Source: Bugula neritina
Taxonomy: Eukaryota; Bryozoa; Gymnolaemata; Cheilostomatida; Bugulidae
Direction: 5' to 3'
DNA: 64,000 nucleotides
NCBI GenBank assembly: GCA_964035545.1
Contig: OZ037771.1
Location: 806,001-870,000 of the forward strand
The notes beneath the pieces are model-generated. The model was not told where the DNA came from, did not search any database, and saw nothing but the letters and a program-made list of their open reading frames with translations. Shown piece after piece: positions 13,627 to 63,762 of this stretch; positions within the stretch are counted from its first letter, which is position 1, and the number at the start of each line of letters is the position of its first letter. The position numbers were made by a program, and so were the translations under genes.

Positions 13627-16600
13627 TTAAGGACAGATAAGAGAGTAGAACTTATGCTTTAAATCCGTCAGCTCCGAGTAATCTGATAGGGTGATTTTAT
13701 AGTTTGCTGTCGGCTGACTGGCTATCAGTGACACTTCATTATCATTCACCTCCTTGCCTATGGCCACGGCCACAATCTCTATACCCGCTGCCTTCGCTCT
13801 GTTAGCTGCCGCAACTGTTTCCTCAAAATCATGAGACGCCCGGTCTAATATCACCACAGCTAAATTTCTCACCTACACATGTAATGGAGTAATTTAATAA
13901 ACAATGTACTGCACTATATCACCATCTACTAATATGCTATCACTGTATTATCATACTATACTACATATTATACTATATACTCTACTATAGATACTACAAT
14001 GTATACTATTGTTATATATAATTTATTATAATATACTATATAGTACATACTAAAATGTAGAATGTAGATACTATAATATACAGTAGATACTATAATATAC
14101 AGTAGATACTACAATATATGTTGTACTACATACTTTAATAAAAATATTATATATTATACTACGCTATAATATATGCTATACTATATTATATGCTATACTA
14201 AATACTATAATATATTATATTATAATACATACTATACTATATACTATACTATATACTACACTATGTATAAAGACAGAAACGTACCCCTTCTCTGTCTCCA
14301 CTCCTTGCTGTAAAGCTGTCAGTCACCAGTTGATTGATATAGTCAGCAGCACTTGGTATGACTTCTCTTTCCGCAAAGTGTCTCAGGATTTCTTCTTTAG
14401 TCTTATAAGTGTTGAGGTTAAACCCAATGTCAAGGTCACATTGCTTTGGTATCAGACCGAACCTCAAGGATGCGTCTCTGAAGATATAATATATTACATG
14501 ATATATATAGTATAGTATATACTATATATGATATATATTATATATAGTCTATAATATATAGTAGGTATATAATATTTAGTATATATTTTATGTAATACAG
14601 ACATATGTAATAATTATGAGTAGAAAGGACGCAAGCGATTGAGCTAGATGAAAATCGCTGATTGAGTTAGCTATGCAGAACCCTGTTGTGGTGAGAAAAA
14701 GTGAGAAACGGTGAGAAGTATGCCACAGTTATAATAAATATAATGTAATAAATAAATTAATAAATGTATTATTATTAGTATAAGGTATATGCAATGCAAG
14801 GAAAGTTGATTTTTTCTCGTATTACAATCACATATAACAATGAATATTCTGAAATGTGTGCTACATTTTCCAACAACTGAATTACCTAAGAAATGGGAGT
14901 TGTGTCTCCTAATTAAATGGGATAACCCCTTATACTCACCCAACATATGTATTCTTGTCTGATATGATTTTCTGTACCATTGAAAGAGCTGGCATAGTGC
15001 CAGATGGGTTTTGTGATGCTGACCCGAGTACGAACATGATGTCTGACTGAAAGCTGATGGTGCACACTGCAAATAGACAGACAAGATGGTGCACTCTGAA
15101 AACAGTCAGGCTTGCAATCTAAGATACGACAAACTTGATTTGATATGAAAAACTGGATCTGGAATTATAATCATCAGCTAAAGTAATACCAAGGAATATC
15201 TCAAAGGAGTTCAACTTGATTCACATAGAGAAGACAAATCTAATAACAGTTAGTATGCTGCTCACCTCCGACTGGGTTGCCCTGCACTTTGCATGTGGAA
15301 GTCACCAGTCGCTCAACCAAAGCACTTCCCAGATCATTGAAGGAATTGACCGTAAATATGTGACCTTCAGAAGGCTGAGACGACACGCTCTCTATCTCGT
15401 CCCAGTTTATCTGAATATCAAAACATATTTATTAAAATACATAAAATATTTCAACTGTTTAGGGTTGCATAAGGTCAAATCAGAAATAAATACCAAATAG
15501 GAACCTATTGATTGCAATAATTTCATTTGCTTTAAATTTCAACAACACACTTATTTTTAGCTCATTATCTCCAGAAAGATGATATTTCAGATTCAGTCAA
15601 TGTGATATATTTGGCTGTTGCTCTCATTTATTAAAAGGAAACTCTATATCTTAGAGGGATGAAGCACCTTTCTATATGCGATGAGCAGGAGATAATTGAA
15701 TTAAAAATCTGAAGTATGCCCTTATTGACTTTCCACCCATCAGTAACAATATGATTCTACATTACATCAACACCAACTTCTCAATTTCTGCACTCTTGCA
15801 ATGCGTAATCCTCAATGTACGATATTTATCAGTTTTAGTGCAAGGTGAACACCCATGGCAGGTATCAGAGTGAATTATCAGATTTCTACTGCCCTTAACA
15901 GGCTCCAAATATTGTATATTCGTGACTTTAAGGCACAGCTAAGCTGATGGTTAATGTCAGTGTAAAATCTCAGACTAAACTCTAATAAATTGTCAATTGT
16001 TTTCAGGCTGTTGGAATTTGATACCAAATTTCATCCTGTTTGGATTGACAGCCCAAAGCTGAGTCTGACCTGATTTAGCAATAAAAGGGAATTGTTGACT
16101 ACATTGTCAACACTGATACATGTTCCCAACCAGCTCAGCTCACCCAGGCCATTGTTCCATGCAGATAGAAATCAGCAATAAAGAAGACTAGTTCAAACCA
16201 CCGCTAAGCTTAAATATTCAGTGTTCTAGGGCTAACAAAAATTAAAAAGTTATTTAGCAAGGGCTGTAATTGAAGATGGTAGAGGAGATAACTATGCGCC
16301 ATTATTTCTTGAGTACAAAACAATAATTGAAAATGACTAAAAGCTAACAAGACTGATAAGAATCAAACTCTATTTGAAGTAATTAGGATGGTCGAGTCAG
16401 CTACACACTAAAGCTGCAAACAAATCTCTACATGGTGCTAGTTTTTAAGTAGTATATCCTGTGCTTACATTGTTGCTAATGGCAACGACAAATATGGTGA
16501 CATTATCTCTGCGGAGAAGCTGAGCCTGGTGGCTGGTTAGTTTGGGGTACCAACTGGATCCGTCAGTGATCAGCACAGCAATCTTCGGCACGCCTTCCCG

Positions 16601-19600
16601 GCTGTTGGAAAATATTTGGTGTCGAACGTGTTTCAGAGCAATGTCTGTCCGAGTACCTACAATCACCAGAAGTAAGGGGTGTGTAAGATGTACCCACCGT
16701 CTAGTGATAACAATTTACAGAGAACAAACTTCTAAGTTCAAAAGCTAGTCATCAGATGAGTACAGTATTGGTTGGTTATCAGGAGATCTCGGTAATGGGC
16801 AACACAAAACATGTCTGCTGAAGAGTAGTGGAAGGCACAGACACTCTGCTGTAGAGTAGTGGAAGGCACAGACACTGTGCTGTAGAGTAGTGAGAGACAC
16901 AGACACTCTGCTGTAGAGTAGTGAGAGGCACAGACACTCTGCTGTAGAGTAGTGAGAGGCACAGACACTGTGCTGTAGAGTAGTGGAAGGCACAGACACT
17001 CTGCTGTAGAGTAGTGGAAGGCACAGACACTGTGCTGTAGAGTAGTGAGAGACACAGACACTCTGCTGTAGAGTAGTGAGAGGCACAGACACTCTGCTGT
17101 AGAGTAGTGAGAGGCACAGACACTGTGCTGTAGAGTAGTAGGAGGCACAGACACTCTGCTGTAGAGTAGTGAGAGACACAGACACTCTGCTGTAGAGTAG
17201 TGAGAGACACAGACACTCTGCTGTAGAGTAGTGAGAGGCACAGACACTGTGCTGTAGAGTAGTGGAAGGCACAGACACTGTGCTGTAGAGTAGTGAGAGA
17301 CACAGACACTCTGCTGTAGAGTAGTGATAGGCACAGACACTCTGCTGTAGAGTAGTGAGAGGCACAGGCACTCTGCTGTAGAACCCAACCTACCATCTCA
17401 AGGTATCTCATCTTACAAGACTCACAGTCCAGTATGAGCTACTGACAAGTTGACTAATGTTTGCTGACCGTGATTGAATGCTGGACGTCTGCTTAGTGCA
17501 AACCATCAGGAAATGGGTAGCAGAGTACAGCAGCGTACAAGAGGCAGCATGCTACACTCTATGTGTGTGTACTGCCTCCCTGTATAATCAGATACTTCTA
17601 GGGCTAATTGTGAAAGCAGTGTAAGGTTTTTAATTAAGGAACCCGAGACTGGACAGTGTAACATCAAACAATACTCTCAGAAATCATCACATCCCGTCTT
17701 CGCATTGTTTTGCTTTGCATTATTATGAAAAGCATTTTCAATGCAGCATAATAGAGAAAGATGTTGGAAAAAGTGACATTTGAATAAATTTGCACAAGAG
17801 TTTTTGTGGTAATATGACTTTTGTTGACATAGCTATTTTTATTTGATTCAACAATTTCAGTTACTGTTGGCACAGAGTCAAGAGCAAACAGCTGATGGTA
17901 ATGTAAGAGTTGGGTGATGACAGAAGCACGCATTGTATAATTGCCTGTAATTGCTAGGAGCACATTTTCAGTGATATTTTGATAGATATCAAGTTTAAAA
18001 GATAGTAGAAGATGACACTCTGCTCTATTTAACTAATAATTTGAGTATCGAATAACAGAGAGGGCATTGAAAGGGAGAAGATGGGGGCCAGATTATCTAG
18101 ATAATGCAGAATGTAGTATTGTAAAGTAATACACTAGATGCAGGACCCTGAATCAGCTTGGCATTTTATGACGTCTAAACTCATGAGATTCTGTTTCACC
18201 TATTGTTGCCATATATGGGCATCAACTGCATACTTAAATGCACCGAAGCTAACAAACCATGAATATGAAAACTCGAACCCTTAAAGATAAGCTATATTCT
18301 GATTTTGAGATTTAAATTACTTATAAAAATGAATTATTTCACACTTTAGCCCACAGCAAACACTCAAGCCTCACCTCCTCTCCTCTGGTCAATTCGGCCA
18401 ATGGCTCTCCTCACGTCAGCCTCGTTCTTGTAGTCAGTGAAGGAGAACCGATGAGTCACCTTGTCGGAGAAGGTAATGGCCGCCACTCTAGTCTGCTCCA
18501 GTCCAATGTCGAAACTGGCCGTCAGGTTTGAGAGGAACTGCCTCAGTTTCATAAAGTGGACTGGCCAAATGCTCGACGACTCGTCGATCACAAAGGCTAT
18601 ATCGGCGGGCTTACCCGGACAGACTGAAAACACAAACAGGATGTGATGTAGTCATGCTATAATTTTTATCTTTTCCCAAGTCTTTGGCCGTTATGGGCAA
18701 ATAGATTAATTCTATAATTTAACTGAAACAGTATAAACATTTTATACAGGATTCAAGTTTGACAATAGTTCAAAACTCATTTACAATTACTTAAACTAGA
18801 ACTGCAAAGCCGAAACATGCGGAAGTATAATAAAACATAGTAATAATGCATAATACATTATAATACATTATGATGCAATGCAATACAGTATAATAAAATA
18901 TAATTTGACAGTTTCATGTAATGAATTCTATTAGAGGATTGGGGAAAACCCATGGAAACTCTAAGAGGTTGCCTGGAGATGCACTCAAGTGGCATGGAGC
19001 TTGTCTGGTATCCTGCATGCATCATTAGGCATAGAAGGGCTAGTACCACACCACCCCAGCTCTATCACTAAACTCTTCAAGTACTTCAGGTATTTTAGAG
19101 TATATGAAATGATTGATTTCATCAGATACTGCAACACATGTTGACAACCACCCCACCGTATTTTAGCACACAGCCTCACAATTAGAATGTGTTGACATAT
19201 ATAATATAATATAATATAGTATAATATAGTATAGTATAATATGATATATTATAATATAATATAATAATATTATAGTAAAATATAATATAGTACAATATAA
19301 AATAGAATAATATAATATAAAAAATATAAGATAACATAATATGATATGTTATAATAAAATATTTAGATATAAATATTGCATAAGATATAAACACATACCT
19401 TTTGTAAGAGCGCACTGTGTAACATCTATTGTGGCTGATATCTAAAATATACATTTTCTAGTGCATCACTTGATAAACAAAAAACAATTATAATTTTTGT
19501 ATGAAGAAATAAATAACCTTATAAATTACTGTGTTCTATTCGGTGTCACTATTGGCATTGCCAAACACTTTCAGAATAAAATGTCCTTCCAAAACTGTAG

Positions 19601-24738: not shown

Positions 24739-27700
24739 TTAACCAGAAGTACTGCAGCTGTACATCTTCCTGACAACGGGGATATCCGACTTGCTGGACA
24801 GGTGCCCTGCAGTGCCCATCAGCCTTGTCGTACTGGAGCCTTTCTTCGATACAATCGTATAACAGGGGGACTTACATCCACTCTTTTTGAAGGACTAGAA
24901 AGAAATAAGTATAAAATATAAAACTATCAGGAGTTGTCTGTACTTGACTACTTGGTGTATTGTGATACAGAAGTTATGCTCTCTCTCTCAAGTCACGTGT
25001 TACAACACTCAGAATAAACTCCCCCCAATACTCTCAGTAATGCTATATACAGCACAATGTGGTATTATCTACACATGTATTACAAAAACTGCTCACCGTG
25101 CTGCGGTAGTGCATAATGCTGGTAGGATCGTACGCATATCCGTAACTGGAAACTCCACTCTTGGTTTTGAAATTAGATTTCTTGGTTGGGTTAATGTTAT
25201 CCCATACAATCTACAATTTAATTTATATTACAATCACTTTATATGCTGGGCTGTTATTTGTAACTAATAATAAAATATATGATAGATGTAACAGTTTCAT
25301 ATTACACAATGGTGTCTTCAACTCTTATAGTGATATATAACACAATGATGTATTCAACTCTTATAGTGATATATAACACAATGATGTCTTCAACTCTTAT
25401 AGTGATATATAACACAATGATGTCTTCAACTCTTATAGTGATATATAACACAATGATGTATTCAACTCTTATAGTGATATATAACACAATGATGTCTTCA
25501 ACTCTTATAGTGATATGTTATACAATGATGTCTTCAACTCTTATAGTGATATATAACACAATGATGTCTTCAACTAACCGTGACGTATTTCTCTCTCTCG
25601 GGGTGCTGATGCTCATGAATCAAGCCAATGGTGTGGCCGAGTTCGTGGAGAATGGTTCGGTGAGCGAAACAGTTCTTGGAGAGGTTTATGTACTGAACTC
25701 GTCTGGTATATCCCAGAGCAGAGGAGCAACTAAATTTATGCGTTATACAGTGTTATATACCAGAAGAGGCCTAGTAATAGTAATAGTGATAGTAATACTA
25801 ATAGTAACAGTAACAGTAATAGTATTAGTAGTAGTCATAGTAATAGTAATAGTATTAGAGAGCTGGACAGTATAAACTAATGAATAGTTTATTATCTAAC
25901 TTAAATATAATAAGATGTAATAAGCCTAAGTGATGTTAGTGTATACTAATACGTAAGTATGTACTAAGATGTAAGTTCAACTTACCCAGGTATATGTAAG
26001 TTCAACTTACCCAGGTATATGTAAGTATACACTTACCCATGTATATGTAAGTTCAACTTACCCAGGTATATGTAAGTGTACACTTACCCAGGTATATGTA
26101 AGTGTACACTTACCCAGGTATATGTAAGTATACACTTACCCAGGTATATGTAAGTATACACTTACCCAGGTATATGTAAGTATACACTTACCCAGGTATA
26201 TGTAAGTATACACTTACCCAGGTATATGTAAGTATACACTTACCCAGGTATATGTAAGTATACACTTACCCAGGTATATGTAAGTATACACTTACCCAGG
26301 TATATGTAAGTATACACTTACCCAGGTATATGTAAGTATACACTTACCCAGGTATATGTAAGTATACACTTACCCAGGTATATGTAAGTATACACTTACC
26401 CAGATATAGTGGCTCCCTTGGAGTCTGTTTTAGTTCTGATCTGCACAAACCTTCTATCGGAACTTTTCTTATATTCAAACTTGATGCAAGTGTATTTCTC
26501 CCACTCGTTCATAGCAGAGCGTATCTTGCTGTGACTTCCATCTTGAGTATTATATTATAGTATTATATACAGTAATACAGTATTATATACAGTCATATAA
26601 CATTATATACAGTCATATAACATTGTATACAGTCATATAACATTATATACAGTCATATAACAATATATATACAGTCATATAACATTATATATACAGTAAT
26701 ATGGTATTATATACAGTCTTATAACAATATATATACAGTCATATAGTAATAGATATACCGTAATATAGCATTGTATACAGTCATATAACATTATATATAC
26801 AGCCATATAGCAATATATATACAGTAATATAACAATATATATACAGTAATACAATGCTACACGGTAGAGTAGTAACCTAGCACACAGTATAATATTCTAC
26901 TAGATCACGTACCGAGTTTAGAACTGTAAGTGTACGGTATCCTTCCATTGGGCCACAACCTTGACCTTGATGACATTCCTGCTCTTCTATGAATAGATTG
27001 TCTCCCCTGGTTTCTGTACAAAATACAGTTTAGCATTACTTTACAATATTACTAATATAGTACAGGTGAAGCCATTGTCAACTACAATGAGACACACTGC
27101 ATTTATGTTACTTGATATTCTAACATACTGTATGTGTAATGTAGAGTAGAGAGAAAAGCTGTAACAGTGTATTATATAATATATACACACAGGAATATAA
27201 AGTTGGGTATACAAGGAAACACAACTCACTCTGGGTGATCAACGACATGGGGAAACAACACCTGAAACATGTCCGGGGAGACAATCATGTCCTCTATTTC
27301 AATAGAACCGTCATCAGTTATATTAGCGTGCAGTACTTGATTGTCTAAGCTGGAGTTGTCTGTCCATAAGTAGATATATAATGATAGTGCAAATGCACGT
27401 ACAGCAACAGTAGAATGTAAATTTTAAACAAACAGTTCAACATGTATAAAACACTTAAAACAAGTTGAAAGAGTTGTAAGGGTGGGGATGCCACCGTACC
27501 CCTAGAGTGTAATGGGTAGAACTCTGACTTGTAGGTTGGAGGTTTGATTCCCGGTGGACTAAAGGATTACTCTCTTTCTGATAAACCTACGAGAGTAGAA
27601 GGCTAGTGATTAGTGGCTACAAAACCATGTGTAGAAAAATAACAAAATTATGAATTTACTTCTGCCTTCAATTAAACAGAATGGCAGACTGCTTTGTGTA

Positions 27701-28765
27701 ACTAGAAGCTGTTGACAAACTAAACTCACCTTCATCTTCGTCTATAAGCAGAGGGACGTCCTCTCCATCATCTCCCTCGTCCAATTCGTCAATTACTTAA
27801 AACAAAACAGACACCTTGAGTTTGAAACGTCTTTGCATACACACAACACAACTCAGCAAGTCTAATACCAAATAGAATGAAAAATAAGTTCCTCTGAATA
27901 TGAAGTGAATCGACGAGAATACTTTTACAGGGCTAAATAATTTAAGGTTTTGGTTTCCAAAATTATACAACTTCTGTGACTGTAAATAATTGTAGGTTTA
28001 ATACAGAGCATAGCAAAAACTTTTACTCTAATCACTTCTGATTTAATCAAAATATTTAAAAACTTGAATGCAAAATTTCAGAACTATACCAAAACAATAT
28101 AAAATAAAATAATATATGTTATAATAGATGGTATTGAAAAATATGTATATTATGATTAAGGAAAACAGTGAGTTACTCTTGAGCTAGAAGAGTGACCTTT
28201 GAACCATGAAAATGACCTCTAAACTATGAGTAATGATCTCTAACTTACAAAACCCAAAGGTTTCTAGGGTAGTAGCAGTGAACTCATCAAGGTCTTCAGA
28301 GTAGTTGGGGACACCATCCGACGCCCCAATAGGTGATGGTAAAGAACTTGATGTTGCTATGGCTACCAAAACTGAGAGCTGCAACAGAATAAAATAAAAA
28401 TAAAAAAGAAATGCACACTAAAATAATCCCTGACTTTGCAGAGTAGAAAATACTGAATACTACACGTGGCAAGTGACACTGTTATTTATTCGAAATATTT
28501 ATAATAAACTGCATATGAATCTTTCCTGAAATGTCTGGTAACTAATATGAGATAGTGCTAAGAGAAATCTATTCTTAAACAAGAATCTTATGCCTATTCG
28601 TTCAAACCAATTGAATTTAAGAATTATCAAACAATCCTAGTGAATAATAAATACTGCAGCACATTTACTATGATAAAATAAAATATAATCTAAACATTTA
28701 GGAATATTTTACAAGCATGACTGAGATGAACATGCAACTCTACTTACAACAATAACGCCCTTCAT
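24739..28765 (-). CDS. Astacin-family zinc metalloprotease (9 exons, 335 aa)
   Basis: Secreted peptidase of family M12A. Exons: 28748..28765, 28249..28378, 27730..27795, 27230..27359, 26913..27013, 26400..26541, 25579..25729, 25097..25210, 24739..24894; frame closed, ends TAA. Signal peptide MKGVIV-LSVLVAIATSSS spans exons 1-2. An acidic propeptide follows (DELDEGDDGEDVPLL; NSSLDNQVLHANI), then a basic stretch before the mature start (SSRSR-LWPNGRIPYTY). The zinc signature is HELGHTIGLIHEHQHPERE: HExxHxxGxxH is intact, but the usual Arg of the family signature is His and two Asp are Glu. The Met-turn is SIMHY with its tyrosine. Cysteines at TCIKF, SGCSS, KNCF and MYSC fit the two conserved disulfides; SGCKSPCY adds a pair. 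No CUB or EGF domain follows, so this is a short astacin rather than a tolloid. The gene lies 0.6 kb downstream of the LRP stop, on the same strand. Confidence 0.96.
25280..25576. repeat. Minisatellite, 36 bp unit, about 8 copies, abutting an astacin donor
   Basis: Units contain CTTATAGTGATATATAACAC followed by AATGATGTCTTCAA (plus strand). On the coding (minus) strand the array begins within about 5 bases of the donor of exon 25579..25729 (ACG|GTTAGT). Every unit is a multiple of three and free of stops, so open frames appear on both strands; these are not genes. The intron is 25211-25578. Confidence 0.92.
25978..26402. repeat. Minisatellite, 26 bp unit, about 16 copies, each carrying the splice donor
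   Basis: On the minus strand each unit reads CTGG-GTAAGTGTATACTTAC plus ATATAC. The astacin exon 26400..26541 ends TCTGG|GTAAGT, so the array is a tandem amplification of the exon-intron junction itself and every unit keeps a consensus GTAAGT. Adjacent units also form the near-palindrome GTAAGTATACACTTAC. Confidence 0.93.
26555..26862. repeat. Minisatellite, about 20 bp unit built on ACAGTCATATAACATTATAT
   Basis: About 15 imperfect copies in the astacin intron 26542-26912, starting about 15 bases upstream of the acceptor of exon 26400..26541. Copies vary between CATATAAC and AATATAAC forms. Confidence 0.85.
27490..27560 (+). mobile_element. tRNA-derived element (degenerate SINE-like head)
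   Basis: Shows a polymerase III A-box-like GAGTGTAATGG and, at the usual spacing, a B-box-like GGTTTGATTCC (one mismatch to GGTTCRANTCC). A possible anticodon arm pairs CTGAC with GTTGG around a 6-base loop. It sits antisense inside the astacin intron 27360-27729. It is too degenerate for a functional tRNA and shares its layout with the element at 63691-63762. A SINE origin is inferred; no tail or target-site duplication was identified. Confidence 0.5.
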
Positions 28766-28812
28766 GGTTGAACTCAGTGCCTGAATTGGTGCTCCACCAC
28801 AGAGTAGGTGAG

Positions 28813-28819
28813 TTTTATA
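28813..28819 (-). promoter_or_regulatory. TATA box of the astacin gene
   Basis: TATAAAA on the minus strand, 48 bases before the astacin ATG (28765). That would place transcription start about 20 bases before the start codon. It lies in the 632-base gap after the upstream LRP stop codon. Confidence 0.5.
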
Positions 28820-29033
28820 CAGCAATCAATACAGTAGGGTGGGGGGGGGGAGATACTGCCTGCAAGGTATTTCTCCCAGGTGTTACTTCTCATCCTATCT
28901 CATAACCAAAGCTGTCAAGTTACATAATAGAGATATGGATGCTGCTACATCCTCTCCACCTTATACGTATATATACCTTGTAGGCCTGGATGTGTGAGCG
29001 TATAATATTGTCAAGCAATATTGAACGAATAAT

Positions 29034-29039
29034 TTTATT
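29034..29039 (-). terminator. Candidate polyadenylation signal of the LRP gene
   Basis: AATAAA on the minus strand about 360 bases after the LRP stop codon and about 220 bases before the astacin TATA box. It is the only clear hexamer I found in this short gap. Confidence 0.45.
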
Positions 29040-29397
29040 AATATACAATATGGAAGAAATACGCAATGTCCATGATTACAATAATCAAATTAAAAAAATT
29101 GCAAATAAGAAAGTAGACAGAGACTAGTGTTAGAATATCTGTGTGTATTATTAGATACTATTATAAATACCATTAATGTTGGCACAAAATGAACCAAATA
29201 TGCTTATTATATCATAAATAACATAAATTATTCATTGAATAGCATAATATTAAACAAAAGATTAGTTAAATCTAAAATATACACAAAGAATAATGTTTGG
29301 AAGGAAAGATGTTTAACTTAACTGGCCCATTGATCATCAAATTCCTAAATAAAGGAGAACAACGTGGGAGAATAATAGTCTAAGAGAATGTAAATTG

Positions 29398-63615
<34,218 letters not shown>

Positions 63616-63690: not shown

Positions 63691-63762
63691 TGCCCCCACT
63701 GGGATTTGAACCCGAGACCTCTGGCTTGCAAGCAAGTGTGCTAACCATTACACCACGGGGAC
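63691..63762 (-). pseudogene. tRNA-Ala(UGC)-like sequence with damaged anticodon arm
   Basis: A 72-base cloverleaf-like sequence in the most 5' intron visible in the LRP gene. The acceptor pairs GTCCCCG with TGGGGGC, and the D arm is GTGT/GCAC. The A box TGGTGTAATGG and B box GGTTCAAATCC match the polymerase III consensus. The anticodon arm reads CTTGC-TTGCAA-GCCAG: the loop has six bases instead of seven and the stem has one mismatch. It looks like a tRNA-Ala(UGC) that lost one loop base, or the head of a tRNA-derived SINE. Compare the element at 27490-27560. Confidence 0.6.

Follow-up and report, generated by a model that had tools for sequence, protein, structure and literature searches.

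Minisatellites that duplicate an exon-intron boundary have been described in amphioxus as 'mirages', with examples in Adh3 and in the globin genes BflGb6 and BflGb9, and a link to intron gain has been proposed for them (PMC3087553). PGBD5 is a further amphioxus case, described in an account that also mentions troponin C (PMC3902484). In an initial annotation of the DNA discussed here, the anchoring of tandem arrays on splice sites was not known as a described genome-wide pattern; it is not new, since the amphioxus mirages had been published earlier (PMC3087553, PMC3902484). Among the papers listed by a literature search that was thin on subscription papers, none described such arrays in bryozoans or a genome-wide excess of arrays close to splice sites, and the words 'intron' and 'satellite' are absent from the main text of the Flustra genome paper.

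Here we describe arrays of this kind in a 64,000-nucleotide stretch of DNA (the window, meaning the whole stretch analysed), which lies in an assembly of 215.8 Mb and 295 contigs. They are likely to be minisatellites of the mirage type, in a genome that is probably bryozoan; they are situated close to splice sites, and their units sometimes repeat the donor or the acceptor. Three properties of mirages are found in them: the boundary lies inside the duplication (in nine of 107 arrays, and in a further one at the locus L035:9602-9873), donor and acceptor sides are both affected, and many units carry AG or GT. The arrays are ordinary in kind, as they belong to a known class of minisatellite, and are notable in their place and number. 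The initial observation of arrays anchored on splice junctions stands, but is smaller than claimed, and its interpretation was half right.

Testing drew on 324 kb of the 216-Mb genome and a single 10-kb locus, most of this coming from one block. The sample provided 152 introns (72 curated and 80 ab initio), 85 of which contain at least one array, and 107 arrays, 44 in the curated genes and 63 others. The gap between the LRP and astacin genes was excluded from the distance tests. An ab initio spanning array at 14183-14342 of the block stays in the counts despite its implausible intron, and a sample with 2,500 masked bases (C5) was excluded from gene prediction and included in the test of unit motifs. 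Under the array-touching-intron null, each array was collapsed to one unit and the start of the tandem duplication could fall anywhere touching the intron; alternative nulls placed arrays wholly inside the intron, or spread a fixed 25-bp unit over all introns. Splice signals were scored per unit with a matrix trained on this same genome.

Repeats with a period of at least 7 make up 20% of the 264-kb block surrounding the window. In the curated genes, repeat sequence accounts for 10,012 of 26,800 intron bp (37%), compared with 0.5% of exon sequence, and so the arrays do lengthen introns, as had been proposed. In the flanking block C7, the repeat share is 31% in introns against 20% in other non-exon sequence. 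Minisatellites thus occupy about one third of intron sequence, and coding exons are nearly free of arrays. Intronic microsatellites number only five, too few to serve as a control.

The window contains two curated genes, both on the minus strand, and all its arrays are given below for that strand. The LRP2 (megalin)-like gene (29427..63615) has 67 curated exons and is incomplete, with weak further exons predicted upstream, outside the window. It is LRP2-like by best hits, and a Pfam scan of 34000-43000 detected, on its minus strand, EGF domains together with LDL-receptor domains of classes A and B. The astacin metalloprotease gene (24744..28378) has seven curated exons; its chain is open, matches solved astacins and is 50% identical to P0001. 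As P0001 has 38 additional residues inside 27229-26529, the astacin model probably misses an exon there. In flanking sequence, a predicted phosphorylase kinase alpha (PHKA) finds its top match in the bryozoan Watersipora subatra (901 bits; 53% identity along the full query), with 252 residues aligned gap-free at 77% identity; the runner-up among the matches listed is an annelid (688 bits, 44%). This match is the ground for regarding the genome as probably bryozoan. A tRNA match (63691-63762, minus strand, 41 bits) just upstream of the curated LRP2-like exons overlaps a weak predicted exon, and is possibly a tRNA-derived repeat. By eye, the exons predicted at 13750-18623 (minus strand) have the look of von Willebrand A domains, and an open reading frame of 1561 codons on the minus strand of block C7 resembles, also by eye, a retroelement polyprotein.

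Exons were predicted by a self-trained exon-chaining script, and the 74 curated ones (67 LRP and 7 astacin) were drawn from its second round. Curation was by eye: it discarded 24 predicted exons within 63615-24744 that were small or lay in arrays, one of which, 56670-56627, may be real, and the exon edges at 51303, 49824 and 50945 were fixed by eye or homology. A later automatic model, partly trained on the curated exons, recovered 56 of these 74 with identical borders, and all 60 exons that it placed in the same stretch fell within curated ones; this agreement is consistency rather than independent proof. Phases agree at all but five of the 66 LRP junctions, and one of these mismatches would be due to a GC donor at 50945. 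Judged from phase and homology, the intron at 50945 in the LRP2-like gene is a putative GC-AG intron. An acceptor at 50608, weighed owing to the phase mismatch, was dropped for 50621, paired with the GC donor.

Nine arrays had been reported initially as starting at or containing an exon border, and all nine were found at about the places given. The five regarded as clearest do carry tandem splice signals in 6 to 16 copies, according to per-unit scores and, at 51302, by eye. On the donor side, the array at 25969..26408 (17 units of 26 bp) spans the end of an astacin exon, with its first intron base at 26399 and 9 bp of exon in the unit. It contains 16 equal-scoring donors including the working one, the 17th register scoring -2.9, and P0001 has two extra residues at this junction. 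The same 26-bp unit has GTAAGT on both strands. The array at 51154..51326 is built of 28- and 22-bp units and spans the donor 51302 of an LRP2 exon, 24 bp of which are included in the unit. By eye, six copies of AG/GTGAGT can be counted at mixed 28- and 22-bp spacing, only three of them in the exact 28-bp register, and the LRP2 alignment across the junction is gap-free.

On the acceptor side, six units of 35 bp at 50611..50819 include the exon start 50621 and 11 bp of exon. They present six equal acceptors, whose partner would be the GC donor 50945, the junction having been settled by eye from phase and homology. The array at 55091..55469 (13.5 units of 28 bp) occupies 379 of the 392 bp of its intron and stops exactly at the acceptor of exon 55090. 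It offers 14 acceptors, with an AG in every register, and of the 13 copies lying upstream, 8 come within 2 of the score of the real site; the LRP2 alignment to P0127 is gap-free here. At 59684..59896, about 15 units of 14 bp (of the TTTTAGTATTTATA type) run 4 bp past the acceptor into exon 59687; AG is present in 14 of 16 registers, and the LRP2 homologues are two to three residues shorter at this junction. An acceptor-spanning array absent from the initial list, 59201..59274 (2.6 units of 29 bp), overlaps exon 59212 by 12 bp and has weak acceptors; near the junction, a few residues upstream, the LRP2 alignment has gaps of one to two residues. On another chromosome, an LRP5/6-like gene (named by eye) has the spanning acceptor array L035:9602-9873, with AG in 12 of 12 registers and a unit that includes, by eye, about 12 nt of exon.

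Four of the nine spanning arrays counted in the sample lie at donors and five at acceptors, and in each of the nine at least two units have comparable in-register sites. Comparable sites in at least half of the units are found in 10 of the 32 arrays that span a junction or lie within 10 bp of one, as against about 2.6 expected from other registers. Such repeated-site arrays amount to 10 per 152 introns, or about one in 15, and about one tenth of arrays include or touch a junction in such a way that their units repeat a donor or acceptor. None of the nine spanning arrays has a unit length that is a multiple of 3, compared with 39 of the 107 arrays overall, a shortage that is suggestive only, as in-frame arrays could have been read as exon and missed by ascertainment. 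With units of such lengths, splicing that slipped by one unit would change the reading frame. Nothing in the sequence or the homologues shows the extra splice sites in use: both the reading frame and the homologues fit the exon-proximal copy, and no evidence was found for the proposed role of the arrays as a source of alternative or new splice sites.

A second group of arrays adjoins a junction without spanning it. One of these, absent from the initial list, repeats the splice signal: 37474..37822 is an array of 17 units of 20 bp, which begins 6 bp inside the donor 37828 and has comparable in-register donors in 13 of its 17 units. The four arrays initially thought to overlap the border in part only adjoin it, and their units lack a comparable splice signal. 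Three are on the acceptor side. At 62063..62330, 2 bp from the acceptor of exon 62060, AG was sought in nine other registers and found in none. At 38018..38190, which the 28-bp TRF row puts about 2 bp from the exon 38015 acceptor, it was absent from all ten other registers searched. At 38979..39195, 5 bp from the acceptor of exon 38973, eight registers score 0.9-2.1 against 4.8 at the real acceptor, so that none has a comparable site; the LRP2 alignment to P0130 runs through this junction without a gap. The fourth, 60043..60150, lies 1 bp from the donor 60148 and has no comparable donor, the best of three registers scoring -1.1 against 4.6 at the real one. At 25299..25575, 3 bp from the donor 25578 of the exon bearing the astacin zinc site, a comparable donor was likewise sought in the other units and none was found. 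The array at 44403..45999 (48 units of 33 bp) begins 10 bp inside the donor and fills 1597 of the 1759 bp of its intron. The idea that such gaps are degenerate array edges was rejected: in 45 arrays, the sequence between array and junction is not more unit-like than the far flank (31.8% versus 34.5%, p 0.50). In eight of the 16 introns with at least two arrays, donor and acceptor each have an array of their own within 60 bp, a raw count.

Across the sample, array ends lie closer to splice sites than they would if arrays were placed at random in introns, the opposite of the outcome that had been set beforehand as refuting anchoring. Seventy-four of the 107 arrays span a splice site or lie within 40 bp of one, whereas two nulls predict 50.1 and 55.8 (0 of 4000 simulations as high in each case); for non-spanning arrays alone the figures are 65 of 98 against 45.1 (0 of 4000). 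Set against the positions available, the excess is 3.3-fold at 0-10 bp (24 versus 7.2), 2.3-fold at 11-20 bp (15 versus 6.4) and 2.5-fold at 21-40 bp (29 versus 11.6). Counts lie below expectation at 41-80 bp (11 versus 17.8), 81-160 bp (8 versus 20.4) and more than 160 bp (11 versus 27.7), amounting to 0.4 times the expected number beyond 80 bp. The bias is similar on donor and acceptor sides, and is present separately in the 44 arrays of curated genes and in the 63 others. When array edges were trimmed by 10 bp and five doubtful introns left out, 63 of 103 arrays still lay within 40 bp, compared with 45.7 expected, and no excess was left within 20 bp (32 versus 26.7, p 0.10). The firm excess is that within 40-60 bp, whereas junction-spanning arrays show none over random duplication.

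To account for this arrangement, we suggest that short tandem duplications may arise, or persist, more often beside exon edges. Where a duplication includes the junction, the copy beside the exon body would keep working, and the other copies would become inert intron, free to grow or shrink by slippage or unequal exchange and so to lengthen the intron. Duplications that disrupt splicing would be removed, which would fit the scarcity of spanning arrays. Tandem splice sites would on this account exist because of duplication together with selection on the exon. It is also possible, although we hold this only tentatively, that intron ends are hot spots for the birth of minisatellites, through a process acting at exon edges (chromatin, transcription or co-transcriptional splicing). 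If so, duplications would occur up to about 40 bp from working splice sites, at either edge of exons and regardless of local sequence, and mirages would be the conspicuous extreme of a general process of duplication near splice sites that sets intron length.

It seems unlikely that there is no anchoring at all, with duplications falling at random in introns, exons being cleaned by selection, short introns forcing nearness to an end, and spanning arrays forming the expected tail. The counts of spanning arrays agree with such randomness, as they are not enriched: nine of 107 were observed where the array-touching-intron null predicts 22.6 and the null with a fixed 25-bp unit 15.9 (p 0.075). Spanning arrays are thus no more numerous than random duplication would yield (about 16 to 23), and therefore need no junction seeding by themselves; of the initial idea of junction-seeded duplication it remains true that some arrays do duplicate the junction. 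Exact abutment also fits in part. Arrays 0-5 bp from a junction number 12 among all 107, with no excess over the 11.5 expected from placement wholly inside the intron, but with one over the 5.9 expected under the other null (p 0.015). At 0-10 bp the 107 arrays again show no excess over the wholly-inside-intron null; the 98 non-spanning ones give 23 against 16.3 within 10 bp (99 of 4000 simulations as high), a modest difference that depends on the edges set by the repeat finder. Moreover, no end bias is seen in introns with 40-100 bp of non-array sequence (n=18, p 0.43), and in those with 100-200 bp it reaches only p 0.06 (n=15). Against randomness, more arrays lie within 40-60 bp than under either kind of null, in which short introns are already allowed for, and the bias holds in introns with 60-200 bp (n=27, p 0.018) and more than 200 bp (n=25, p 0.0057) of non-array sequence.

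Survivorship would produce an end bias without a hot spot of birth: arrays would form anywhere, and those near intron ends would last because deletions reaching into splice signals are lethal. Scarce spanning arrays are expected under such selection. Near-end arrays should then be older and more degraded, and the trend is opposite, the median unit identity being 92% matches near ends as against 88% (rho -0.35, p 2e-4). This evidence against survivorship is weak, since units are also longer in the arrays near ends; when arrays are compared inside each of three unit-length classes, the identity difference keeps its sign but is not significant (p 0.19-0.27). On balance we regard survivorship as unlikely.

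A role of the arrays as splicing regulators, or as a reserve of alternative splice sites for which they are kept, is quite improbable. There are precedents, as some C. elegans minisatellites (CeRep25B) have been linked to alternative splicing (PMC4039745), and minisatellites at human exon-intron boundaries can yield novel introns (PMC2812944). The content of the units argues otherwise. In 71 non-spanning intronic arrays the best unit scores are alike on sense and antisense strands (donor p = 0.89, acceptor p = 0.64), and strong donor motifs in 74 intronic arrays show no sense bias (8 sense versus 11 antisense); that each unit keeps a usable signal, as had been supposed, is therefore not general. 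GTAAGT does occur in 14 and GTGAGT in 18 of 212 units, counting both strands, compared with 7.7 and 9.2 in dinucleotide shuffles, but this enrichment is not read as splicing, because sense bias is lacking within introns. CCAGGT is likewise enriched in units over dinucleotide shuffles. The splice scores and the 6-mers listed revealed no shared regulatory unit: the units of the arrays listed are mostly unrelated to each other, and GTAATA, the most widespread of 25 listed enriched 6-mers, is present in only 29 of 212 arrays. The shortage of multiples of 3 among spanning units, with its possible ascertainment, also speaks against a reserve of splice sites. A branch-point function was considered for ACTTAC and ACTCAC, the reverse complements of the donor motifs, which occur in many acceptor-near units, and was rejected, since neither ranks with the 15 most enriched 5- or 6-mers in the interval -45..-12 relative to acceptors.

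Finally, it is highly improbable that the pattern stems from errors of gene prediction or from the edges set by the repeat finder: junctions outside the two curated genes are mostly ab initio, the curated exons were themselves picked from predictions and a few LRP phases mismatch (one mismatch since explained by the GC donor), but the trend is common to both sets and survives edge trimming, and the predicted PHKA chain aligns closely with that of Watersipora.

Arrays are over-represented up to 40 bp from splice sites, and spanning ones are not; this separates the claim that arrays copy the junction from the claim that they form near it. Descriptions of single genes cannot separate the two, and the latter can be tested genome-wide in existing bryozoan genomes. 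Human introns that derive from tandem arrays were reportedly described by Zhuo in 2007. Those cases, and the human ones in segmental duplications, concern new or alternative introns, whereas nothing here shows a new intron. The arrays resemble the modification of human genes by tandem repeats in segmental duplications in that units at the boundary are able to supply splice sites (PMC2812944). They are like CeRep25B of C. elegans in being intronic minisatellites near splicing decisions, but CeRep25B has one shared unit with regulatory motifs, while the units here are mostly unrelated (PMC4039745). Amphioxus mirages are closest, sharing the tandem duplication of the exon-intron boundary, 5′ or 3′, and the many AG or GT units (PMC3087553). 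The spanning arrays of the window have units of 14-35 bp, compared with 150-160 bp in the amphioxus globins and 10-72 bp in Adh3 (PMC3087553), and are known from the sequence of a single assembly. The published accounts describe mirages gene by gene in the lancelet; the bryozoan arrays would add a second, distant lineage, in which one may ask whether duplicated junctions ever turn into new introns. Unlike the amphioxus mirages, they belong to another phylum and extend over numerous loci, and their excess close to splice sites has been measured.
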